Origin: an uncultured Methanosarcinales archaeon
GTDB lineage: Archaea > Halobacteriota > Methanosarcinia > Methanotrichales > Methanotrichaceae
Direction of reading: 5' to 3'
Assembly: GCA_903871465.1 (NCBI GenBank)
Contig: CAIQHB010000050.1
Location: 1-64,000 of the forward strand
Length of the DNA stretch: 64,000 bases
Shown here piece by piece: positions 7,771 to 38,828 of this stretch. The position numbers and the translations under genes are program-made. Each line of letters starts with the position of its first letter. Position 1 is the first letter of the stretch. The notes under the pieces are model-generated. The model did not search any database, had not been told where the DNA came from, and saw nothing but the letters and a program-made list of their open reading frames with translations.

Positions 7771-8955
7771 ATGGATGTCTCTTTCTCGGCCTGGCGGCAC
7801 TCGCGCGAAGAGAGTTTGCAGCTCAAAGGAGATAGCTTTTCTTTTCTCTTCGATAGGCGCTACACCAATCGACTCAACAGAATGAGTCGCGTTTTCTTTG
7901 AAGCCTATGTCGCAGCCACCAAAGAGCTGGCCGCGCAGGAGGATCGCTTCCCCAGCCTTAGCGAGATAGATGCTAAGATGGAGAGCGGAGCCGTCTATGC
8001 ATTCAAGGACCGTCTGATGAAGAACACCGAGTTCTTCGAAGAAGTTAAAATTTCAGGCGTCTCCTATCTGGTTCCGCGCGCTCTCAAGTTTGTCGATTCA
8101 AACGGTACCTATACCGATTTGATCTTGAGCTTCGATGAGGGCACCGTGGTGCTGCCTACGCGCAGGAAGACACCCTTATTGCCAGAGCCGCGGACATCTT
8201 CACCACCGGATGTTGAGGAGCCGCAATCTTTGGAGCCGGAACGCGAAGCCTTGGAGTCAGACGCAATTTCGGCGACAAATGATTTGCCAGAGACAACGCC
8301 AGAATCATATTCCCAGATATTTGATGAGGTAACAGAACCTGTAGCGACGAATGGCGCGTCGTCCTCACCCGAGCACCTGATGGATGAAAAAGACGCGACT
8401 ATGCCTTCTGCAAAAGAGCCCGAAATGCCGGCCGGCCGTAAGAAAATGAAATTGCCGTCCAGGGCTATTATGTTGCTTGGTTTTGTCACTCTGCTGGCAA
8501 TTGCCGCCGTTGTATTCTATATAAGTTCCTCGATGGTCGTGTCACCGATTCAGGTCGAGTACTCGGCTTACCTTTCTAACTCCAGCAATGAGAGCTATCT
8601 TGGCCTGGATATCACCAACCCCAAGGGGATGGCCAATGACATGGAGATGACGCTGCCGCCCAATATCGACCAGAGCATAAGTGCGAGAGGCGGCGTTGTG
8701 ACCATCGCGCACGGTTCCAGCACCAGGGTGCGAATGAATAGCAGTAGTGATGCCAGCGTGAAGATCTACCTGCAAGGCAACTGGACGACGATTCCTGCAA
8801 CACTCAGCTTTGCCGCGCCAAATGGTTATGACACCAGCCTCCAGGTTCACGGCAAGGACTACTTCGTCACGCGCAAGAACGAAACCCTGATTCTCATGTT
8901 CAATCTGACAGGGGAAGGCGTAAGATTTGAGCAGAGCTATCTTCGGAAACATTAG
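7771..8955 (+). CDS. Single-pass membrane protein with acidic linker
   Basis: No family is recognised. In the 394-residue protein, residues 1 to about 130 form a cytosolic-looking folded domain, about 130-225 is an acidic Pro/Ser/Glu-rich linker, and about 229-252 is one strong transmembrane helix (AIMLLGFVTLLAIAAVVFYIS). About 140 residues follow with several N-x-S/T sequons (NSSNES, NSSS, NWT, NET, NLT), which places that part outside the cell. The layout resembles a sensor or anchor linking a cytosolic domain to a surface domain, but that is an inference. Its last 29 bases overlap the TTG start proposed for the next gene. Confidence 0.75.
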   Translation: MDVSFSAWRHSREESLQLKGDSFSFLFDRRYTNRLNRMSRVFFEAYVAATKELAAQEDRFPSLSEIDAKMESGAVYAFKDRLMKNTEFFEEVKISGVSYLVPRALKFVDSNGTYTDLILSFDEGTVVLPTRRKTPLLPEPRTSSPPDVEEPQSLEPEREALESDAISATNDLPETTPESYSQIFDEVTEPVATNGASSSPEHLMDEKDATMPSAKEPEMPAGRKKMKLPSRAIMLLGFVTLLAIAAVVFYISSSMVVSPIQVEYSAYLSNSSNESYLGLDITNPKGMANDMEMTLPPNIDQSISARGGVVTIAHGSSTRVRMNSSSDASVKIYLQGNWTTIPATLSFAAPNGYDTSLQVHGKDYFVTRKNETLILMFNLTGEGVRFEQSYLRKH

Positions 8956-9961
8956 GCTGGCGGTAAGAGCAGAGAGAGAGAATGCCGATGCAACTCTGAA
9001 AAGAGTAGCCTCACTCGGCCTTCTCGATAGGAGTCGCAAGGTTCTGGAAAGAGGCTGCTATGTGGAGATACCTGTCACCAAGTCCGTCTCCGGCTGCGAG
9101 ATGATAACTCAAGAGAAGCCGGCCTTCTACAAGAGAACGCCCGATCTCGCCGAAGCCCTGCAAAGCGAGTTGTCACTGGCAGATCTCGATCTTCTTCCTC
9201 GCGGCTGGTATATCCAGGGAAGTGTCATAGTCGTCAAGATCCATCCAGACCTTTCACGGCACCAATACCGTATCGGTCAGGCTCTTCTGGACTTCTATCC
9301 GCGTTGTTGCACGGTATTGCGCGACCACGGCATTGAGGGCCGGTTCAGGGAGCCTGTGCGCGAGACGATCGCGGGTTTCAAGACGGAGACGGTGCATCGG
9401 GAGAATGGAGTGATCTTCAATCTGGATGCTGCAAAAGTGATGTTCTCGGCCGGCAACCTGAAGGAACGCATGCGCATGAGCCTTCTTGGTAAGGACGAGT
9501 TCGTTGTGGATATGTTTGCGGGAATTGGTTATTTTACACTCCAGATGGCGGTTCATTCCCGGCCGCGCAGGATCATGGCCATTGAACTGAACCCGAACGC
9601 CTACCAATTTCTCTGCCAGAATATCCGGGAAAACCACGTCGAGGATATTGTGGAGCCAATTTTGGGCGACTGCACAGAGGTGACACCCGTAGGCGTTGCG
9701 GACAGAGTCGTGATGGGCATGGTCCAGGTGACAGACAGGTTTCTGCTGAAGGGCATCCAGGCCTTGCGACCGGGCGGTATACTGCACTACCATCAGACAA
9801 TTCCCACCGTGATGCACCCGGCCCGGGCGGTGCAGGATGTAACGGACGCGGCGAAAATTTTGGGAAGGCGAGCCGAGATCCTGAGGTGCGTTCGGGTCAA
9901 GAAGTACTCACCGGGAATGGTTCACGCCGTAGTCGATGCCCGGATCGAAGGAGCGAGGTAA
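8927..9961 (+). CDS. taw2: Class I SAM-dependent enzyme, Taw2/Trm5 family (tRNA position 37)
   Basis: Probably transfers the 3-amino-3-carboxypropyl group of AdoMet during wyosine synthesis on tRNA-Phe position 37. The 344-residue protein has an N-terminal domain of the Trm5/Taw2 kind (LLDRSRKV...YVEIPV), then the Rossmann motif DMFAGIGYFT (about residues 191-200) and the AIELNP acidic loop. At motif IV it reads DRVVMGMVQ rather than the NLP of Trm5 methyltransferases, which favours Taw2. The C-terminus KKYSPGMVHAVVDARI fits the family. The TTG start at 8927 lies within the end of the upstream gene; no closer ATG or GTG would keep the N-terminal domain. Confidence 0.83.
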   Translation: MSRAIFGNIRLAVRAERENADATLKRVASLGLLDRSRKVLERGCYVEIPVTKSVSGCEMITQEKPAFYKRTPDLAEALQSELSLADLDLLPRGWYIQGSVIVVKIHPDLSRHQYRIGQALLDFYPRCCTVLRDHGIEGRFREPVRETIAGFKTETVHRENGVIFNLDAAKVMFSAGNLKERMRMSLLGKDEFVVDMFAGIGYFTLQMAVHSRPRRIMAIELNPNAYQFLCQNIRENHVEDIVEPILGDCTEVTPVGVADRVVMGMVQVTDRFLLKGIQALRPGGILHYHQTIPTVMHPARAVQDVTDAAKILGRRAEILRCVRVKKYSPGMVHAVVDARIEGAR

Positions 9962-25345: not shown

Positions 25346-25640
25346 GAGTTTATGCTTCTCTTTGGTTTCTCGAAGTTTTATGCAGCTCGCCTCAAGTTAC
25401 TATATTTTCACTTGTTCTTTAGCCGCTCTGTGCGAACTCTGTGAGCTCAGTGGTTAAAACGTCAAGAGCCATGCTGGCTATGGCCAAAAATATCTCGACT
25501 TATGGACGGACGAGAATCCACAGTCGTGATCTACTTCTTCCGGCATGGATATTCGAGCTCGGGATAAAAATTCAGAGGTCAGGGATGCATCCCAGAAAGG
25601 CTTATCATTTCAGCCGGTCCAATACTCCATCAAGGATGTG
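25346..25640. other. Intergenic region upstream of the NLR cassette
   Basis: Nothing recognised beyond a low-complexity string near 25428-25458 (repeated CTCTGTG units) and a TATA-like TTACTATATTTTCAC at about 25396-25410. That element could drive the cassette beginning at 25641 with a long leader. Confidence 0.3.
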
Positions 25641-26075
25641 ATGCAGATGGATCCATTAAGTCTGGCTGCCGTTGCCGCTCCGTTTCTGGCCAAAGGTGCC
25701 GAGGCCTTCTCCAGTACGGCAGGAGAAAAGCTGGGTGCAAAGCTCGGGGAGCTTTGTCAAGCGGTGATTAATAAGTTCAAAGGCGACTCCGATGCAGAGG
25801 AAACCCTAGCCCTTGCTCAGAAGAAGCCTGATTCCAAAGGCCGGCAGACTGCGCTCGAAGAGGTCTTGGCAGAGAAGCTGGAGGCAGATCCGGATTTTGC
25901 CGAAAAGCTACAGAAGCTGGTGGACGAAGTGCAGAAGGGTGCAGCCACCAGGACGGCCTTTGACCAGCGTGGCCAGAAGATAGTCGGCACGCAGACCAAC
26001 ATCGCCGGCAATGTCAACGGCCCTGTTCTCTCCGGAACCTTCAGCGGCCCGGTGAACACCGACAAGTCCAAGTAA
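25641..26075 (+). CDS. Small helical putative effector with C-terminal amyloid-signalling-like motif
   Basis: The 144-residue protein starts with a hydrophobic, Ala-rich helix (MDPLSLAAVAAPFLAKG), then Gly/Ala-spaced amphipathic helices (EKLGAKLGELCQAVINKF) and a charged helical region ending near residue 105. Residues 107-144 form a Gly/Asn/Gln/Thr-rich segment with GQKIVGTQTNIAG and GPVLSG. The same motif opens both downstream STAND genes. This fits the pattern of bacterial and archaeal Bell-type cell-death effectors whose C-terminal motif is seeded by an NLR; membrane disruption by the N-terminal helices is an inference. The start is set by AAGGA 4 bases before the ATG; an ATG at 25647 is also possible. 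Confidence 0.72.
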   Translation: MQMDPLSLAAVAAPFLAKGAEAFSSTAGEKLGAKLGELCQAVINKFKGDSDAEETLALAQKKPDSKGRQTALEEVLAEKLEADPDFAEKLQKLVDEVQKGAATRTAFDQRGQKIVGTQTNIAGNVNGPVLSGTFSGPVNTDKSK

Positions 26076-26083
26076 AGAATATC

Positions 26084-28186
26084 ATGGCAGACGAATCCCG
26101 CATCAACCAGCACGGCCAGAAGGTAGTCGGCCCGCAGATCAATGTAGCTGGAGATGCAACTATCGCCTCCCCACCTCCGGTCTTCGTCCCTCACCTTCCA
26201 CCTCCTCCCCGGGACTTCACCGGCCGAGGCGAGGAGCTGCAAGATCTCTTAGCTGGCTTTGATCGAGGAGCCACGATCACCGGCCTGCGCGGGATGGGTG
26301 GCATAGGCAAGACGGCTCTGGCTTACGCATTGGCCGAGAAGCTGACCGGACGCTATCCCGACGGCCAGATCCTTGTGGAGCTGAGGGGCACTGACCCCGT
26401 GCCCATGACACCAGCCGAGGCCATGGCCAGGGTCATCCGGGCCTACCATCCCGAGTTCAAGCCTCCTGAAAGCGAGGCAGAGCTCGTCAATATTTACCAC
26501 TCCATTCTTCACGGAATGCGGGCATTGCTGCTGCTGGATAATGCAGCGGACGACAAACAGGTGCGCCCGCTGCTTCCTCCACAAAGTTGCGGAGTGATTG
26601 TAACCTCCCGCCGCAAGTTCACCCTTCCCGGCTTGGTCCCAATGGACCTGGATGTGCTCAGGACGGATAAGGCTGTAGAGCTCCTGCTGAAACTGTGGAA
26701 ACCAGGCGCTTCGCCCTCAGCCGAAGGGCTGAGTGATGAAGATCTGCAGGAGATCGCCCGGCTTTGCGGTCTCCTGCCGCTAGCGCTGCGAGCCGCGGGG
26801 AGCCTTCTGGCTAACAGCCCTGATCTGAGCCCAGCCCAGTATGTCAGAGATCTGCGAGATGAGCAGAAGAGGCTGAAGCGCATCGGCAAGGAGGGCGTGG
26901 ACCTGGATGTGGAATCCAGCTTCGGCCTGAGCTACAGCCGCCTGAAGCCCGAGACCGCGGCTGTCTTCAGGTTTCTGTCCATCTTTCCCGCAAGCTTTGA
27001 TGCTGCTGCCGAGGAGGTCGTATGTCAGGATGAAGGCCACATGCATCTGAGCGAGCTTGTGCGCTGGAGCCTGGTCGAGTACCAGAGGCAGAGCGACGAG
27101 GGCGAAGGCAGGTATCATCTGCATGACTTGGTGCGAATCTTTGCGACCGGGCGACTGGTGGAGGCTGAAGGCGAGGCTGATAGGAATGATGCGCAGCAGC
27201 GTCATGCCGAATACTACTTAGGGCGTCTATCTGAAGCTGATGACCTCTATCTGAAAGGCGGGCAAGGCATCCAGTCTGGGCTTGCGCTCTTCGACCGCGA
27301 ATGGGCCAATATCCGGGCAGGACAGTCCTGGGCGGAGCGCCAAATCACAAAAGGGATCCGCCAGGAGCTGAAGCGGATCTTCTGGATATGCGATGACTTT
27401 TCGAATGCCGGCGCTTATATCCTGGATATACGTCTGCGTCCTGCTGATAAGATTCCCTGGCTTGAGGCCAGCCTTAAAGCTGCCCGGGCGCTGAAGGATC
27501 GGGAAGGGGAAGGCATGCACCTGGGCAACCTGGGACTGGCTTATGCTGCTCAGGCCGAGCCCAGCAAGGCCATTGAGTGCCATGAGCAGCACTTGGCTAT
27601 TGCCCGCGAGATCATGGATAGATATAGCGAAAGTGCCTCACTGGGCAACCTGGGCTTGGCCCACCTCGCCCTGGACGAGCCTGTCAAGGCCATCGATTTT
27701 CACAACCAGGCTCTGACCATCTCCCGTGAGATCAGGGATAGACGAGGTGAAGGTGCCGATCTTGGCAACCTGGGACTGGCCTATGCTGCTCAGGGCGAGC
27801 CCAGCAAGGCCATTGAGCGCTACGAGCAGGCCCTGGCTATCTATCAAGAAATCGGGGATCGAAGGGGCGAAGGTGCCGTCCTGGGCAGCATGGGCATAGT
27901 CGAAAGGAGACTTGGCAAATACAGCGAGGCCATCGAGCATTATAAGCAAGCCCTGACCATCGCCCAGGAAATCAGAGACCGCCTGAATGAAGGGGCATGG
28001 TTAAACGATCTGGGGGATGCATACGCTGATCTGGGCGATAAAACAGCACGCGAGTACTACGAGCAGGCAATGCAAATCTATGGTAAGACAGGCAAACGCC
28101 CCAATATTACAGGATTTCGCTGCAAACTCAAATTTAAGCGCGATCGAAAGCCCATCAGTCGATGGAGTGAGAGCGCAACTGGCTGA
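26084..28186 (+). CDS. STAND NTPase (NB-ARC) with TPR repeats, NLR-like
   Basis: A 700-residue NLR-like protein. Residues 7-24 carry a version of the shared motif (HGQKVVG, QINVAGD). The NB-ARC core follows: FTGRGEEL, Walker A GMGGIGKT (about 70-77), Walker B ALLLLDNA, GVIVTSRR and the GxP motif GLLPLAL, then a winged-helix region ending in HLHDLVRIFA. The C-terminal part holds five TPR units of about 40 residues (GNLGLAYAAQGEPSKAIE-type). Known STAND proteins hold ADP at rest and oligomerise on ligand binding; here the TPRs would sense and the N-terminal motif would signal. It begins 8 bases after the small effector gene. Confidence 0.88.
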   Translation: MADESRINQHGQKVVGPQINVAGDATIASPPPVFVPHLPPPPRDFTGRGEELQDLLAGFDRGATITGLRGMGGIGKTALAYALAEKLTGRYPDGQILVELRGTDPVPMTPAEAMARVIRAYHPEFKPPESEAELVNIYHSILHGMRALLLLDNAADDKQVRPLLPPQSCGVIVTSRRKFTLPGLVPMDLDVLRTDKAVELLLKLWKPGASPSAEGLSDEDLQEIARLCGLLPLALRAAGSLLANSPDLSPAQYVRDLRDEQKRLKRIGKEGVDLDVESSFGLSYSRLKPETAAVFRFLSIFPASFDAAAEEVVCQDEGHMHLSELVRWSLVEYQRQSDEGEGRYHLHDLVRIFATGRLVEAEGEADRNDAQQRHAEYYLGRLSEADDLYLKGGQGIQSGLALFDREWANIRAGQSWAERQITKGIRQELKRIFWICDDFSNAGAYILDIRLRPADKIPWLEASLKAARALKDREGEGMHLGNLGLAYAAQAEPSKAIECHEQHLAIAREIMDRYSESASLGNLGLAHLALDEPVKAIDFHNQALTISREIRDRRGEGADLGNLGLAYAAQGEPSKAIERYEQALAIYQEIGDRRGEGAVLGSMGIVERRLGKYSEAIEHYKQALTIAQEIRDRLNEGAWLNDLGDAYADLGDKTAREYYEQAMQIYGKTGKRPNITGFRCKLKFKRDRKPISRWSESATG
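27480..28080 (+). repeat. TPR-coding tandem repeats (120-base period) in the first NLR
   Basis: About five units of 120 bases, each encoding one 40-residue TPR with GNLGLAY, KAIE and REIxDR landmarks. Units differ more from one another than those of the second NLR. Confidence 0.85.
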
Positions 28187-28205
28187 ATGGAGGAAATAGT
28201 CTATT

Positions 28206-30584
28206 ATGATTGATAAACCCAAAATCGACCAGTGCAGCCAGAAGATAGTCGGCACGCAGACCAATATTGCAGGTGGCGTCGAGGGGCCGGTGTTATCTGG
28301 GGAGTTTCATGACAGGGTCACAATTAATCAGCTTCCTGTCGCACCTAAGATCATCCCCCTGCAAAAGCCCCCTCGGGCGCAGCATTTCACCGGCCGCGAA
28401 AAGGAGCTGGAAGACCTGTTAAGAGATCTACGACCCGGACAAGTAATTACCATCTGCGGTCCAGGCGGCATGGGCAAGACGGCCCTGGCCGCGGAAGCTA
28501 TCTGGCAGCTCGCGCCGGGAAACGATCCGCCCCAAAGATTCCCGGATGGCATCTTCTTTCATACCTTCTACCACAAGCCCCAGGCAGCTCAGGCCCTGGA
28601 GGCCATCGCCCGGGCTTATGGCGAAGACCCCCGCCAGAGCCCTCTGGAAGCGGCCAGGCGAGCACTTAGTGGCCGACATGCTCTCATCGTCCTGGATGGA
28701 ACGGAAGCCTGTGATGACCTGGAAGAAGTCCTCAGCATCACGGCAAGTTGCGGAGTGCTCATAACCACCCGGCGCCATGCAGATGCGCCTGCCGATTTCA
28801 GTGACCTGCCTCCTTTACCTATGGGTGAAGCCGTTCAGCTTCTGCAAGCCTGGGGCAGCGAAATGGCATCGGACGCAAAGACCTGCCAGAGCATCTGCAA
28901 CATCCTGGGCTGCCTGCCGCTGGCCATCTTCCTAGCGGGCCGCTATATGGCCCACCGGCGGCAGCTTGGCTGCGAGTATCTGGCCTGGCTGGAAAAGACG
29001 CCCTTGATCGCTCTGGACCTGGGAAAACGACAGCATCAGAGCATCCCGCTCTTGATGGAGCATAGCCTTCTGCAGGTCAGCGATCAGGCACGAGGCTGCC
29101 TGGGCCTGACCGGCGTCCTGGCATTGAAGCCATTTGAAACAGATACCATCGCCATCGCTCTGGAGATCTCAAATGAGGATGCAAATCACAGCCTGGGCGA
29201 GCTGGTCGATTTCGGACTTTTGACGCGCCCTGACGTTCGATACCAGATTACCCATGCTCTGGCTCACACCTATGCCAGAGAACGACTCGCTCCGCCGAGC
29301 AATGCGCTGGCTTGCCTGGCGAAGTACTATGACGATTTAATCGGAAAAGAGATGCAGCGAGGACTGGTCGGCTATGCCCTTCTGGATGGGAAACGAGACC
29401 ATATACTGGCAGTGCAGTCGGCCTGCAATAGGGCAGGATTGTGGAAAGCTGTGCGCACTCTCACATATGCTATCGAGGACTATCTGGACCTACAAGGGCA
29501 TTGGGTGGAAAGGATAGCCATCTTGCAGGCAGGATTGAATGCAGCAAGATGCGATGAGTCATGCTATGATGAAGCTTCATTCTCTAATTTATTAGGCATG
29601 GCCTACGAGGATCTAGGCAACGCCCACAAGGCCATTGATTATTACGATCAGGCGCTGAAAATTGCCAACGATATAGGGGACCGGCGGGGTGAAGGAGCCA
29701 TCCTGGGCAACCTGGGACTGGCCTACTTCCATTTGGGCGAGCCCCTCAAGGGCATCGAGTACCACGAACAAGCACTGAAAATAGCCCACGAGATGAGTGA
29801 TCGGGAGGTGGAAGGAGCCAACCTGGGCAACCAGGGACTGGCCTACTTCCATCTGGGCGAGCCGCATAAGGCTATCGTGTACCACGAGCAGGCGCTCAAA
29901 ATATCTCGTGAGATCGGCGACATGAGAAATGAAGGCGTTTGGCTGGGCAACCTGGGCCTAACCTACTCCGATCTGGGCGATCCACATAAGGCTATCGAAT
30001 ACCACGAGCAAGCGCTAAAAATATCTCGTGAGATCGGGGACCGGCGGGGTGAAGGGGCTGGCCTGGGCAACCTGGGCATAGCCTACGCCGATATGGGCGA
30101 ACCGCATAAGGCTATCGAATACTACGAGCAGGCGCTAAAAATGTCTCGTGAGATCGGGGACCAGACAGGGGAAGGAAACCATCTGGGCAGCCTGGGACTG
30201 GCCTACTTCCATCTGGGCCAGATTGGCAAGGCAATCGATTACTACGAGCAGGCGCTAACGATAGCTCGTGAGATCGGGGACCGGAGAGGGGAAGGGGCTG
30301 ACCTGGGCAACCTGGGTAATGCCTACGCCTCCCTGGGCGAGCCGCGCAAGGCAATCGAGTTCTACGAGCAGCAGCTTGCCATCACCCGCGAGATCGAGGA
30401 CAGAAGTGGTGAATCAATTGCTTGCTGGAATCTGGGCCTCGAATATGAGAAGGCAGGAGATCTCAGGCGAGCCGTAGATCTGATGCAAGCCAGCATAGAA
30501 TTCGAGAGGGAAATAGGTCGTGCGGATGCGGAAAAGTATGCCAAATATCTGGAGAACCTTCGAGGAAGGCTAGGTGAGACGTGA
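28206..30584 (+). CDS. Second STAND NTPase with N-terminal shared motif and long TPR array
   Basis: A 792-residue NLR-like protein. Residues 10-33 repeat the effector's C-terminal motif almost word for word (QKIVGTQTNIAG, GPVLSG). Then come FTGREKELED, Walker A GPGGMGKT (85-92), Walker B HALIVLDG, the sensor GVLITTRR and GCLPLAI. A winged-helix part follows (to about 360), then at least eight TPR units of 40 residues from about 465 to the end. A ribosome site GGAGGA lies about 12 bases before the ATG. It is more closely matched to the effector motif than the first NLR, so it is the better candidate for pairing. Confidence 0.88.
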   Translation: MIDKPKIDQCSQKIVGTQTNIAGGVEGPVLSGEFHDRVTINQLPVAPKIIPLQKPPRAQHFTGREKELEDLLRDLRPGQVITICGPGGMGKTALAAEAIWQLAPGNDPPQRFPDGIFFHTFYHKPQAAQALEAIARAYGEDPRQSPLEAARRALSGRHALIVLDGTEACDDLEEVLSITASCGVLITTRRHADAPADFSDLPPLPMGEAVQLLQAWGSEMASDAKTCQSICNILGCLPLAIFLAGRYMAHRRQLGCEYLAWLEKTPLIALDLGKRQHQSIPLLMEHSLLQVSDQARGCLGLTGVLALKPFETDTIAIALEISNEDANHSLGELVDFGLLTRPDVRYQITHALAHTYARERLAPPSNALACLAKYYDDLIGKEMQRGLVGYALLDGKRDHILAVQSACNRAGLWKAVRTLTYAIEDYLDLQGHWVERIAILQAGLNAARCDESCYDEASFSNLLGMAYEDLGNAHKAIDYYDQALKIANDIGDRRGEGAILGNLGLAYFHLGEPLKGIEYHEQALKIAHEMSDREVEGANLGNQGLAYFHLGEPHKAIVYHEQALKISREIGDMRNEGVWLGNLGLTYSDLGDPHKAIEYHEQALKISREIGDRRGEGAGLGNLGIAYADMGEPHKAIEYYEQALKMSREIGDQTGEGNHLGSLGLAYFHLGQIGKAIDYYEQALTIAREIGDRRGEGADLGNLGNAYASLGEPRKAIEFYEQQLAITREIEDRSGESIACWNLGLEYEKAGDLRRAVDLMQASIEFEREIGRADAEKYAKYLENLRGRLGET
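29600..30430 (+). repeat. TPR-coding tandem array (120-base period) in the second NLR
   Basis: Seven to eight consecutive 120-base units are strongly alike at the DNA level, sharing strings such as CTGGGCAACCTGGG and GAGATCGGGGACCGG. Each unit codes for one TPR. The likeness suggests recent unit duplication or gene conversion, so copy number may vary between strains. Confidence 0.9.
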
Positions 30585-33220: not shown

Positions 33221-34075
33221 TCAGCTCTTGCACAGTACCTTGTCCAGAAATATGAGATTCTCAGGCGACTCCGTCAGCTTAACCCGATCACCCTTCACTT
33301 CAACGATGGAGTCGAACCGGGTGAACTGAACCTGCGCCACATTGACCAGGGGTTCGCACCCGTTCCTGAGGTGATCTATGAAACCATCGATATTCCCGCC
33401 TTCTCCCATGTAGTCGATGATGCGGCGGAATAGCTTGGGAAGGATGGCCACCTCATTTGTAATGGTCCCAAGGTTAGTCGTGGAGAACCCTTTCGTGGTC
33501 AGATCATAGGGCCAGATTCCCCTCCCTTCCTCCCTGGCATGGATCGATGCGTAGGTCAGAGGATGTCGAAGATCCGAGAAAAGTCCGTTGTAGTACATGG
33601 GATAAGCGAGGCCCCTGACTATGAGCCCGTAGTTGAGGCTCTTGCTGAGCATTGATTCATTCAGTGAGATCTCTCTGCCATCTTTTTCTTCGCTACCGCC
33701 CGCAAAGACGAAGGCCACAGGACGGCGAAGGCTCTCCGTACTGCGGGCCAGGATGTAACCCTCCGTCCCGTCCTCAGCCTTGATCACCCTCTTTTGCGTC
33801 TCATCCCAGACGACATCATGAATCCCCAGGCTGGAGAGGATATAGCGTACCGCAGGCCTGGCCAGCCGCAGAGGCTGGTGGAATCCCTGATAGTGAGTCT
33901 CCAGGGCATCGACTGCCTCCATGCGGAGACTGGCATGGCCCAGGGCATTCAGAGCCGCAGCGGGACCTGATAGCTTCCTCCAGTTAGCGGAATCGTCTGC
34001 TTGAAACCGGATCGAGTCGCCATCCAGACAATAACCCAGCACATGGAAGGTGCCCTTAATCAGAACAAAGGTCAT
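33221..34075 (-). CDS. Staphylococcal-nuclease-like (SNase) domain protein
   Basis: The 284-residue protein resembles SNase-like proteins: an N-terminal strand region (LIKGTFHVLGYCLDGDSIRFQADD) with the DGDS turn, then SLNYGLIVRGLAYPMYYNGLF and ASIHAREEGRGIWPYDLT, close to the G-L-x-...-A-x-x-x-x-x-GLW ending of SNase domains. An insertion of over 100 residues separates the two parts. The C-terminal about 90 residues are unassigned. There is no signal peptide, so a cytosolic location is expected. Catalytic Arg/Glu positions are uncertain. Confidence 0.65.
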   Translation of the reverse strand: MTFVLIKGTFHVLGYCLDGDSIRFQADDSANWRKLSGPAAALNALGHASLRMEAVDALETHYQGFHQPLRLARPAVRYILSSLGIHDVVWDETQKRVIKAEDGTEGYILARSTESLRRPVAFVFAGGSEEKDGREISLNESMLSKSLNYGLIVRGLAYPMYYNGLFSDLRHPLTYASIHAREEGRGIWPYDLTTKGFSTTNLGTITNEVAILPKLFRRIIDYMGEGGNIDGFIDHLRNGCEPLVNVAQVQFTRFDSIVEVKGDRVKLTESPENLIFLDKVLCKS

Positions 34076-34161: not shown

Positions 34162-34174
34162 AATATTGTCTAAA
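34162..34174. promoter_or_regulatory. AATATTGTC-type motif upstream of comDE
   Basis: AATATTGTCTAAA occurs here, about 190 bases before comD. The same core occurs twice before the sulfonate-type transporter at 36905-36936. It may be a shared operator, but AT-richness makes chance recurrence possible. The same gap also holds a short direct repeat (ATCATCTGGAATA twice, around 34230-34255). Confidence 0.25.
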
Positions 34175-34360: not shown

Positions 34361-34858
34361 ATGAATCCCAGCCTCGCCATATTTCGCGGTCTGAAGCACG
34401 CCGGGATAGACTTCGCGACATCCGTCCCCTGCGTCAATCTGCAAGAGCTGCTGAATCTTGTGGGCAAAGATCCGGAGATCATCCACGTGCCCGTCACCCG
34501 CGAGGAGGAGGGCGTGGGCCTGTGCGCCGGGGCCTGGATGGCAGGGCGGCGGTCTGCCCTGCTTATGCAGAATTCGGGCCTCGGGAACAGCATCAACGCC
34601 CTAGCATCATTGGACATCCTCTACGGCATTCCACTACTTCTGATCATAAGCCACCGCGGGGTAGCGGGCGAGCCCATTGTCGGCCAGGTGCCCATGGGAC
34701 GGCTCACGGTTCCCCTGCTGGACGCCATGCAGATCCCTCATTTTTCGCCCGCCAGTGCTGAAGCAGAAGATACGGTTAATGCCGCCTGGGAAATGGCAGC
34801 AGCCTGCAGGAGGCCTGCCGCCATTCTCTTGGACCTTGATTTTTGGAGGGGAGCATGA
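34361..34858 (+). CDS. comD: Sulfopyruvate decarboxylase, alpha subunit
   Basis: With ComE converts sulfopyruvate to sulfoacetaldehyde in coenzyme M synthesis. The 165-residue protein is the pyrimidine-binding half of a thiamine-diphosphate enzyme: IDFATSVPCVNL, HVPVTREEEGVGLCAGAWMAG (with the activating Glu) and MQNSGLGNSINALASL. The ATG at 34361 is preferred to an in-frame TTG at 34334 because homologues begin with MNPSxA. The stop overlaps the comE start by 4 bases, so the subunits are co-translated. Split subunits are normal for methanogens. Confidence 0.94.
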   Translation: MNPSLAIFRGLKHAGIDFATSVPCVNLQELLNLVGKDPEIIHVPVTREEEGVGLCAGAWMAGRRSALLMQNSGLGNSINALASLDILYGIPLLLIISHRGVAGEPIVGQVPMGRLTVPLLDAMQIPHFSPASAEAEDTVNAAWEMAAACRRPAAILLDLDFWRGA

Positions 34859-35427
34859 AACGGATAGATGCCATCGCCCTGGCAGCGGAAGCGGCCCAGG
34901 CAGAAGGTGCCCTGCTGATCTCGAACATCGGCTTTCCCAGCCGGGAGCTTTATGCTGCAAGAGATCGCCCGGAAAACTTCTACATGCTCGGCTCCATGGG
35001 CTTGGCTTCTTCTATCGGCCTCGGCTTAGCCCTGGGCTTGGAGCAGGGCCAGCCGCAAAGACGGGTGATCGTTCTGGATGGCGACGGTTCAGTGCTCATG
35101 AACCAGGGAACTCTGGCCACCATCGCCCATTATGCACCGGAGAATTACCTGCTGGTGATTCTGGACAACTGCTGCTACGGCTCCACGGGCTCTCAGCCCA
35201 CCTGCACCCATCTTGGCACCGACCTTGCCGCCATCGCCCTGGCAGCAGGCGTCAATTCTGTCAGAAAAGTCGACAATCTCGATGATCTGCCTCTGGTCCT
35301 CGCTGGTCAAGGGGTAGTGGTCGTAAAGGTGGAAGCGGGCAATGCCAGCGTTCCCGTTATAGACCTCTCGCCAGAAGAGATAATCGATCGATTCATGAGA
35401 TCCGCTCAACAGGCTCTGCCATCCTGA
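34855..35427 (+). CDS. comE: Sulfopyruvate decarboxylase, beta subunit
   Basis: The thiamine-diphosphate-binding half of sulfopyruvate decarboxylase, 190 residues. It shows the cofactor motif GDGSVLMNQGTLATIA...NYLLVILDN (GDG...N) and a conserved start with SNIGFPSRELYAA. GGAGGGG 4 bases before the ATG at 34855 fixes the start, overlapping the comD stop in ATGA. Its last 35 bases overlap the end of the convergent marker-16 gene, an unusually tight arrangement of two coenzyme-M-linked genes. Confidence 0.94.
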   Translation: MKRIDAIALAAEAAQAEGALLISNIGFPSRELYAARDRPENFYMLGSMGLASSIGLGLALGLEQGQPQRRVIVLDGDGSVLMNQGTLATIAHYAPENYLLVILDNCCYGSTGSQPTCTHLGTDLAAIALAAGVNSVRKVDNLDDLPLVLAGQGVVVVKVEAGNASVPVIDLSPEEIIDRFMRSAQQALPS

Positions 35428-36694
35428 AAGAGCCATCCAGTATCCTTCTCTTCAGATCCTCTGCCAGCTTCAGGGCGCGCAGCTTGTCCGATTGGCGCAA
35501 GACCACAGGTATGGTTCTGATCTTCCCTGAAGCGGTCTTCAGCCGGATGGCACCCATACGGCATTGAAAGGCGCCATTTGGACATTCGCTGACGCATAGT
35601 CCGCAGTGAAAGCAGAGCGACTCATCTCGCAGGGCGCGAGCGCCCTGTCTATCGAAACGAACGGCTTTCATGGGGCAGGCCTTCATAACCCGGCACCGTT
35701 TGCAGCCCTGGCATTTCTCCGGATCGAACTCCTCCGCCAGGTCCACCCCTTGCCAGACGTCGCCGTAGCAAGCCTCGCCGATGACCATTCTGGTGTTTAT
35801 ATCATTGACAGGCAGGACAATATCTCTGTCCAGCATGGAAATCTCCGCCAGGATGGTGTCGCTCGTCACGGGAATGGGCACAGCCCAGGAGCAGATGCAC
35901 TCCGGGCCCGCAGAGGTCGCAAAGCCGCCCATATACTCAGCCGACATTTGATGCATATCCGCAAAGCCTGACAGGTTCGGCCGCTCTCTTGTGCTACGCG
36001 TGCCCGTACCCAAAACATAGCCCTCCGCACCGTTCATGAGAATGCGCGTTCCTACGCCGATCGTTTCCAGCAGCGGATCATTTTTTAGGGGATTTATCTG
36101 GCCGCAGCCGGAGAACGTTGCTTCCCGGCAATGGGGCTCGAAACCGCGCGCGTGAAAGATGGTGCTAACCGGCTCCGCCCCCGGATTGACAAAAGCCGAG
36201 TAATTTTTGAAAGCATGGCGCGATCCATAGATTCGGGCAAATGGCATATCATCCAGCCCGACCTCGACCTGGAGCGATCTACCGCCATCGGTCTCGACCT
36301 CGACCTGCGCCGTCTTTTTCTCCACAAGATCGCGAAAGAGATGACCTCCTCCGTAATTGGGCCGATCGCGGCTGTGGGCAGTTCCAAAGACCACCAGATC
36401 CAGTACTCCCAGGTTTTCGTTGGGACAGGGGCCCACCTGAGCGGATATGCCGTTGATCCAAACCCGCTTCGCCCTCAGAAATGATGCGGGCCTGGCCGCA
36501 GGGAAAGAGAATATCGCGTAGGTGCCGCTCATCACGGCCCGCGTGGCCGTGGTGACAACGTCCACTCCCGCCAGCCGGGATTTGTCCCCTGACTCCACCA
36601 ACCGGGAGACCTCTTCCGCAGTCAGGACAACTGCTTCGCAGCGCTCGATCCTGTTCAGAATTTCCGAAAGCAATCTTACCATTGAAACCTGCAC
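35393..36694 (-). CDS. Methanogenesis marker 16 metalloprotein (COG1900/DUF39 with ferredoxin domain)
   Basis: The 433-residue protein has a COG1900 homocysteine-biosynthesis-type domain (about 1-330; VVTTATRAVMSGTYAIFSFP, NENLGVLDLVVFGTA, GCGQINPLKNDP, GSRHAFKNYSAF). A C-terminal two-cluster ferredoxin domain follows, with CQGCKRCRVMKACP and CFHCGLCVSECP. COG1900 relatives in Methanosarcina turn aspartate semialdehyde into homocysteine using sulfide. This methanogen-specific branch, touching comE, is a candidate for the analogous last step of coenzyme M synthesis, sulfoacetaldehyde to thiol. That role is an inference from family chemistry and position. Start is at the first Met or the Met four residues later. 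Confidence 0.88.
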   Translation of the reverse strand: MQVSMVRLLSEILNRIERCEAVVLTAEEVSRLVESGDKSRLAGVDVVTTATRAVMSGTYAIFSFPAARPASFLRAKRVWINGISAQVGPCPNENLGVLDLVVFGTAHSRDRPNYGGGHLFRDLVEKKTAQVEVETDGGRSLQVEVGLDDMPFARIYGSRHAFKNYSAFVNPGAEPVSTIFHARGFEPHCREATFSGCGQINPLKNDPLLETIGVGTRILMNGAEGYVLGTGTRSTRERPNLSGFADMHQMSAEYMGGFATSAGPECICSWAVPIPVTSDTILAEISMLDRDIVLPVNDINTRMVIGEACYGDVWQGVDLAEEFDPEKCQGCKRCRVMKACPMKAVRFDRQGARALRDESLCFHCGLCVSECPNGAFQCRMGAIRLKTASGKIRTIPVVLRQSDKLRALKLAEDLKRRILDGSFRMAEPVERIS

Positions 36695-36891: not shown

Positions 36892-36936
36892 AATATTATT
36901 CTATAATATTGTCCATTTTAGGAAAATATTGTCTAT
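36892..36936. promoter_or_regulatory. Operator-like repeats before the ABC transporter
   Basis: A 7-bp inverted repeat AATATTA-TTCTA-TAATATT occupies 36892-36910. Overlapping it, AATATTGTCCAT (36905-36916) and AATATTGTCTAT (36925-36936) form a direct repeat with exactly 20 bases spacing, two helical turns. This suits binding of a regulator upstream of the binding-protein gene at 37003. Confidence 0.4.
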
Positions 36937-37002: not shown

Positions 37003-38016
37003 TTGAGGAAATTCATATTCATAGCCCTTCTGGCAGCAGTGGTAGTGGTGACCATGGGCTGCATCTCATCTCCAGAGAAGAGTGGCAATGCCACCTCATC
37101 GGAGAAGACGACTGTCAACATAACCACTCTGCATATCGGATACCAGCCCAGTACCCATCAGATTGCTGAGATGGTAGCATCCGATAAAGGCTGGTGGGCA
37201 GAGGATCTGAAGCCCTTTGGAGTAGCGACAGTCGATGAGAAGGTATTCCAGTCAGGACCGCCTGAGATGCAGGCCATGCTCGCAGGAGCATTGGACATTG
37301 CCTACGTGGGCACAGCTCCGCCAATAACGGCCATAGCCCAGGGCTTGGATGCAAAGATCGTGGCCGCTGTAAATATCAATGGCTCCGACCTGGTATTGAG
37401 GCCGAACATAACATACAGCGGACCCAAGTCCCTGGAAGGCCTGAGCATCGGCACCTTCCCGCCCGGGTCCATTCAGGATATAGTCATGAAGAAATGGCTG
37501 AAGGATAACGGGGTTGACATTTCCAAGGTCCAAATTCACGGTATGGGACCTGGAGATGCCGTGACTGCCATTGAAGCCGGAAAGATCGATGGCGTCTTCC
37601 TGCCCCACCCATCCCCCTCACAGATTGCGCTGGACGGCAAAGGCAGATCTGTTGTCCAATCAGGAGAGATGTGGCCCAATCATGCCTGCTGCAGCCTCCT
37701 CATCAGCGGAAAGCTGCTCAGAGAGCAGCCGGCTCTGGTGGAGCAGATAATCAAGACCCACATCAAGGCCACAGAGTATGTCAACGCCCACCCGGATGAG
37801 GCTGCGCAGATCTACGCTCAAAAGACCGGTCAAAACCTTGCTATGGTGAAAGAATCAATCAAGAACTGGGACGGAAAGTGGATCAGCGATCCCACAATCC
37901 AGATCCCGTCAACGGTGGAATACGCAAAGATCGACCAGCAGTTGGGGTACATCAACAAGACCCTCAGCAAGGACGATCTATTCGACACGGGCTTCTATGC
38001 GAAGGCGGTGGCCTGA
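37003..38016 (+). CDS. ABC transporter substrate-binding lipoprotein, nitrate/sulfonate/taurine type
   Basis: The 337-residue protein is a periplasmic-type binding protein of the SsuA/TauA/NrtA group. Its lipobox VTMGCISS gives a lipid-anchored Cys near residue 20. IGYQPSTHQIAEMVASDKGWW opens the domain, and QAMLAGALDIAYVGTAPPITAIAQG is the family's hinge signature. The start is TTG at 37003 with AGGTGATC 4 bases upstream. The ligand is probably an organosulfonate or similar oxyanion; the nearby coenzyme M genes make a sulfonate attractive but unproven. The permease gene follows after 23 bases. Confidence 0.9.
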   Translation: MRKFIFIALLAAVVVVTMGCISSPEKSGNATSSEKTTVNITTLHIGYQPSTHQIAEMVASDKGWWAEDLKPFGVATVDEKVFQSGPPEMQAMLAGALDIAYVGTAPPITAIAQGLDAKIVAAVNINGSDLVLRPNITYSGPKSLEGLSIGTFPPGSIQDIVMKKWLKDNGVDISKVQIHGMGPGDAVTAIEAGKIDGVFLPHPSPSQIALDGKGRSVVQSGEMWPNHACCSLLISGKLLREQPALVEQIIKTHIKATEYVNAHPDEAAQIYAQKTGQNLAMVKESIKNWDGKWISDPTIQIPSTVEYAKIDQQLGYINKTLSKDDLFDTGFYAKAVA

Positions 38017-38039: not shown

Positions 38040-38828
38040 ATGGTCAAGACCAAGAGGCTGGAGGATTTGGTCGATGGGCGAGGCATCGAGGCCCTATCCA
38101 TATTGGGCTTGATTCTTGTCTGGCAGATCGCGGCAGCGGCAGTGAATGACAAGCTGCTGCTGCCAAGCTTCCTCCAGGTAGCCGCGGCCTTCTCCAAAGA
38201 GTGGCCGACGATATTAACAGAGGATCTTCCCACCAGCCTGCTTCATTTTCTTATAGGAATGGCAGGCGGTCTCCTCGTTGCTCTGCCTCTGGGCATGATC
38301 ATGGGCTGGTTTCGAGCGGCAGACAGAATACTGGACCCCATTGTGGAGATCTTCCGACCCATACCCCCGCTGGCGTGGATTCCCTTCGCCATCGTCTGGT
38401 TTGGCCTGACCGATACGGCGGCAGGCTTCATTATCTTTGTTGGGGCAGTCTTCCCCATCCTCATCAATACTTACGTGGGCTTTCGCAACCTTCCACGAGT
38501 TTATGTGGAATCAGCCAAGGTTTTGGGAGCTACCAAAGACCTCGACCTGGTGAGATACGTGGCCTTTCCCTATGCTTTGCCCTCCATTGCAGGAGGAATC
38601 CGCATAGCCATGGGAATCGCCTGGATGTGCCTCGTGGCAGCAGAGCAGTTCGGAGTAAGCTCCAGCGGGCTTGGCTACAAGATCTGGTCCTACTACTATC
38701 TGCATGAGATGGACTATGTATTGCTTTACATCGTCATGCTGGGCCTTCTGGGATTATTCATCGACAAGACATTCCGCTATGTAGTGGAAGAGAGGCTGCT
38801 CAAGTGGCAGGTGGGCCTGACGCAGTAA
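38040..38828 (+). CDS. ABC transporter permease, SsuC/TauC type
   Basis: A 262-residue permease with about six membrane helices and the binding-protein-dependent permease signature ESAKVLGATKDLDLVRYVAFPYALPSIAGGIRIAMGIAW (EAA-type loop, about residues 155-195). Partner of the lipoprotein just upstream. No ATP-binding subunit gene follows; the next gene is AdoMet synthetase in its own unit. The ATPase must be supplied from elsewhere in the genome. The start at 38040 is preferred over a long upstream frame that runs through the binding-protein gene. Confidence 0.9.
   Translation: MVKTKRLEDLVDGRGIEALSILGLILVWQIAAAAVNDKLLLPSFLQVAAAFSKEWPTILTEDLPTSLLHFLIGMAGGLLVALPLGMIMGWFRAADRILDPIVEIFRPIPPLAWIPFAIVWFGLTDTAAGFIIFVGAVFPILINTYVGFRNLPRVYVESAKVLGATKDLDLVRYVAFPYALPSIAGGIRIAMGIAWMCLVAAEQFGVSSSGLGYKIWSYYYLHEMDYVLLYIVMLGLLGLFIDKTFRYVVEERLLKWQVGLTQ

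Follow-up and report, generated by a model that had tools for sequence, protein, structure and literature searches.

A predicted coenzyme M synthase gene (MMP16/comF) lies tail to tail with comE in a Methanothrix genome

Introduction

The last step of coenzyme M (CoM) synthesis was long without an assigned gene. Methanogenesis marker 16 (MMP16) of M. jannaschii (MJ1681) was shown by White (2019, as cited in PMC12068725) to make CoM in E. coli. In M. acetivorans, Chadwick et al. (PLoS Genet 2025, PMC12068725) identified MMP16 as ComF, the primary CoM synthase, and noted its co-occurrence and clustering with sulfoacetaldehyde-forming genes. Deletion of MMP16 in M. acetivorans reduced growth without CoM to ~70% of the wild-type rate, and in medium without sulfide the mutant was a CoM auxotroph that was rescued by MMP16 (PMC12068725). 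Given sulfide, knockouts of M. maripaludis and, at 0.4 mM sulfide at least, of M. acetivorans still made CoM, which the authors attributed to backup by L-ASST or to spontaneous chemistry (PMC12068725). A later paper still considered the last step possibly non-enzymatic (PMC12713407). The CoM synthase role of MMP16 is thus already published (2019, 2025) and is not new. The main text of PMC12068725 makes no mention of ANME, Methanoperedens or paralogs, nor did we find in it the second MMP16 copies, the serine in place of Cys54, or the families with comDE but no MMP16 that are reported below; the genomes of these families may already be listed in its S1 Table.

Results

We analyzed a 64,000-nucleotide stretch of DNA (the window) from an uncultured archaeon, in which an MMP16 gene lies next to comD and comE (Table 1). 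The predicted protein matched TIGR03287 over its full length (522 bits, cut-off 364; profile positions 1-391 of 391) and PF01837 with 348 bits, and Fer4 dicluster matches were found in its C-terminal part, bearing out the original prediction of a COG1900 protein with a two-cluster ferredoxin (marker 16). It shares 55% identity with the M. acetivorans-type protein (alignment A1, row 2), its nearest named relatives are from Methanothrix MAGs, and in the tree it clusters with the comE-linked copies from other Methanothrix. Judged from its sequence, the gene is an ordinary ortholog of the known enzyme MMP16/ComF (TIGR03287, COG1900d).

Table 1. Features of the comDE-MMP16 locus (window coordinates)
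Feature	Position	Strand	Remarks
Candidate shared operator upstream of comD, AATATTGTCTA	34162..34172	+	post hoc, weak
comD, sulfopyruvate decarboxylase alpha subunit	34361..34858	+	from ATG; TIGR03845 205 bits, cut-off 148
comE, sulfopyruvate decarboxylase beta subunit	34855..35427	+	TIGR03846 231 bits, cut-off 221.5
Convergent overlap of comE and MMP16 coding ends	35393..35427	opposite strands	tail to tail; exactly 35 bases
MMP16/comF	35393..36694	-	COG1900d domain and C-terminal 2x[4Fe-4S] ferredoxin; 433 aa from GTG
MMP16, alternative ATG start	36682		
MMP16, ferredoxin-like part	35552..35731	-	residues 322-381, covered by Fer4 dicluster matches; Fer4 matches at 323-376
MMP16, cluster ligands			C328 C331 C334 C340 and C361 C364 C367 C371
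MMP16, Cys197 (M. acetivorans Cys202)	36104..36106	-	invariant in 70/70 MMP16 sequences
MMP16, Cys90 (M. acetivorans Cys95)	36425..36427	-	invariant in 70/70 MMP16 sequences
Two AATATTGTCYA sites upstream of ssuA (36905, 36925)	36905..36935	+	20 bases apart; post hoc, weak
ssuA-like, sulfonate ABC transporter binding protein	37003..38016	+	divergent from MMP16; TIGR01728 171 bits, cut-off 163.5
ssuC-like permease	38040..38828	+	PF00528; best NCBIfam models are sulfonate, nitrate and taurine permeases, all below cut-off

Alignment of the MMP16 sequences showed that all eight ferredoxin cysteines are invariant in the 61 primary copies. The column of L-ASST Cys54 holds Ser56 in MMP16, a serine that is invariant in alignment A1, and the column of L-ASST Cys131 is a gap. 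No CBS domain was matched in a Pfam profile search of MMP16, and its ferredoxin is fused rather than separate. An AF2 model of the protein had a mean pLDDT of 91.5; a fold search of the PDB with it returned no match at E <= 0.001, the ferredoxin part alone being recognizable. Since the convincing matches in a sequence search of the PDB were also confined to the ferredoxin part, these searches gave no mechanistic lead.

The tail-to-tail overlap with comE and the other structural features were as originally described. The overlap does not amount to operon membership: convergent genes are not cotranscribed, so MMP16 abuts the operon without being part of it. The genes comD and comE themselves overlap by ATGA.

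We surveyed the linkage of MMP16 with comDE, as had been proposed, in 150 genomes of the class, 117 of which contained MMP16 over the cut-off and comE over or close to it. The two genes were on one contig in 108 of these 117 genomes and convergent in 107 of the 108; the single same-strand pair consisted of genes far apart. In 105 of the 117 they were within 5 kb of each other, all convergent, and 69 class pairs had profile ends separated by less than 60 bases. Most of the Methanotrichaceae loci read, and one genome from another family, had exact overlaps of 14-50 bases, mostly 35 or 38, and the gaps in Methanosarcina-like genomes were ~26-800 bases. The overlap is not due to chance, because convergence was kept in every close pair among the 117 genomes and overlaps recurred in relatives. 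Outside the class, comE was within 5 kb in 30 of 48 MMP16-containing genomes, all on the same strand and with 1.8-2.9 kb between the genes. All these counts come from related genomes and are not independent; the occurrence of two different linked arrangements, convergent and same-strand, nevertheless argues for a functional tie between MMP16 and comE.

We then examined the taxonomic distribution of MMP16 in 197 genomes of the phylum, each at least 90% complete. MMP16 was over the cut-off in 89 of them, and mcrA was present in all 89 (a clear match in 83, fragments in 6); another 26 genomes had mcrA without MMP16. An occurrence in many organisms lacking CoM had been named as evidence that would speak against the prediction, and among the 197 phylum genomes MMP16 was not found in any genome without MCR. 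Outside the class, comE was present in 46 of 48 MMP16-containing genomes versus 4 of 24 genomes with mcrA and no MMP16 (Fisher p 7e-12, with genomes treated as unrelated). The window genome contains mcrA on contig C31 and, on C55, a cysteate synthase gene (TIGR03844, 567 bits vs 325) whose neighbors encode an ABC-type ATPase, a HypB-like GTPase and a COG2000 Fe-S protein, genes that are often near CoM genes and whose role is not known (PMC12068725). Besides comDE and MMP16, the genome therefore has the phosphoserine/cysteate route.

On the other side of MMP16, the ssuA-like and ssuC-like genes are kept beside it in many Methanotrichaceae loci. As CoM-specific ssuA and ssuC go up in CoM-starved M. 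acetivorans (PMC12068725), it is a reasonable guess that the neighboring pair is a candidate uptake system for CoM or another sulfonate. The sequence AATATTGTCYA occurs five times in the 3.13-Mb genome; three sites are at the comD/ssuA locus, one is inside a CheR-like gene and one is near a methionine-synthase-like gene. The choice of this motif was post hoc. The best match between the regions upstream of comD and ssuA was within the range of shuffled sequences, and the sites were not conserved in that form in relatives, leaving the candidate operator as a weak lead.

Two other regions of the window were noted. A 284-aa protein encoded at 33221-34075 (-), between comD and a gene for a CoA-binding protein, had no Pfam or NCBIfam match and appeared nuclease-like by eye only. 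At 25545-30584, two adjacent NB-ARC/TPR genes have a short 'QKxVGxQxNxAG' stretch in common with a small upstream gene; the stretch is N-terminal in both large proteins and C-terminal in the small one, and presumably resembles NLR/effector amyloid-type signaling motifs.

Ten of the 150 class genomes contained two MMP16 copies over the cut-off, the window genome included, whose second copy is full-length (517 bits; G000:C24:45707-46894, L043:7684-8949) and is not near comDE. The Methanothrix second copies lie beside a GMP synthase gene and form their own branch inside the main clade of MMP16. In Methanosarcina-like genomes, the second copies form a deep separate branch in which the ferredoxin Cys331 is lost; they lie (L046-L051, near positions 8000-9900) in a cluster with genes for an ATPase, a HypB-like GTPase and a COG2000 Fe-S protein, and several of these clusters also contain a LipS2-like radical SAM gene.

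In two families, the class genomes contained mcrA and comDE and no MMP16, and cysteate synthase lay beside comDE in most of the loci of these families that were read. In f5 (11 genomes, 91-99% complete), comE was over the cut-off in 10 of 11 genomes and mcrA was present in 10 of 11, one only as a fragment, and no match to a COG1900 protein (PF01837) was found in any of the 11. All eight f5 loci read (L062-L069) had a cysteate synthase gene followed by a fused comDE (family models were applied to one locus), and no consistent neighbor beyond cysteate synthase was found beside comDE that might be a replacement enzyme. This family may be Methanoperedenaceae, which were earlier described as encoding ComDEF (PMC4683180); a narG search in f5 gave one match only over the cut-off. 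In f4 (7 genomes; loci L070-L075), comE was over the cut-off in six genomes and mcrA was present in six, and the COG1900 proteins were of the L-ASST type only. Most f4 comDE loci also contained genes for a flavoprotein-like oxidoreductase and a TatD-associated radical SAM protein.

Discussion

The window gene is very probably the Methanothrix ortholog of MMP16/ComF and thus a CoM synthase acting after ComDE. In the proposed pathway, a cysteate synthase encoded elsewhere in the same genome would serve the upstream steps, and ComDE would decarboxylate sulfopyruvate to sulfoacetaldehyde. MMP16 would then act on the aldehyde: its COG1900d domain would add reduced sulfur (sulfide or an equivalent bound to the enzyme), and its fused ferredoxin domain, to which the domain structure points as the electron donor, would pass two (or four) electrons to yield 2-mercaptoethanesulfonate. 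The adjacent ssuAC would probably import CoM or another sulfonate. Cys200 and Cys202 of M. acetivorans MMP16 are not required in vivo (PMC12068725), and since mutation of Cys202 leaves function, the proposed chemistry stays putative. Our analysis provided the gene identity, the cluster ligands, the linkage and the co-occurrence, and the CoM-forming activity is that of orthologs in the literature. The original prediction, which by analogy with L-ASST placed the gene at the final step of CoM synthesis, agrees with the reasoning and genetics of PMC12068725, including the CoM auxotrophy of a deletion in a tractable methanogen (M. acetivorans without sulfide), and is therefore supported without being new. 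A knockout that still makes CoM, which it had listed as contrary evidence, does exist in the presence of sulfide.

The window genome has two full MMP16 copies, and the one on C24 could share or take over the role of the window gene. Conceivably the window MMP16 acts more broadly as an aldehyde-to-thiol sulfurtransferase, with another thiol, such as the mercaptoheptanoyl part of coenzyme B, as its main or an additional product, and the C24 paralog shares the CoM work. Such a role would fit the presence of two copies and the finding that an MMP16/L-ASST double mutant of M. acetivorans was unobtainable even with CoM, for which the authors suggested a possible coenzyme B role (PMC12068725). It is the window copy, however, that abuts comDE and ssuAC, in a linkage that is conserved. 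Moreover, all methanogens need coenzyme B, and a second copy carried by just 10 of the 150 class genomes is too rare for that purpose. We consider this broader role improbable.

Still less probable, in our judgment, is that the last step is mainly a spontaneous reaction of sulfide with sulfoacetaldehyde, or is carried out by L-ASST, with MMP16 only regulating or assisting. An abiotic reaction has been reported and the deletion mutant grows at high sulfide (PMC12068725), and some families of the class contain comDE and mcrA without MMP16; against this stand the auxotrophy of the mutant without sulfide, its rescue by MMP16 and the activity of MJ1681 in E. coli, the last as cited in PMC12068725. 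The same families bear on whether MMP16 is the sole biological route to CoM. Lacking any COG1900 protein, f5 would need an unrelated CoM synthase or free sulfide. The view that MMP16 is not the only route, together with the view that the Methanosarcina-like second MMP16 may be a specialized system for another thiol, seems to us evenly balanced between true and false.

The assignment of the window gene as a CoM synthase extends the published role to Methanothrix, and the window shows independently the linkage behind that role. Methanothrix is a major acetate-using methanogen.

Compared with the known systems, the window MMP16 most resembles M. acetivorans MA3299 (PMC12068725) in family, domains, invariant cysteines and convergence with comE. 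The loci differ in that comD and comE are fused in M. acetivorans-type genomes and separate in the window, that hundreds of bases lie between MMP16 and comE in the former whereas the genes overlap in the latter, and that cysteate synthase is beside comDE in the former and elsewhere, with the ATPase, GTPase and COG2000 genes, in the window genome. M. jannaschii MJ1681, for which CoM formation in E. coli is cited, belongs to the same NCBIfam family as the window protein. L-ASST (MA1821/MA1822, COG1900a plus NIL-ferredoxin) is like MMP16 in its COG1900 family and in converting an aldehyde to a thiol with a ferredoxin partner, but it has a separate ferredoxin subunit and CBS domains, and its catalytic, essential Cys54 corresponds to a serine in MMP16. 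The L-ASST homologue of the window genome itself (C13, L001) reached 148 bits to TIGR03287, below the cut-off that the window MMP16 clearly exceeds.
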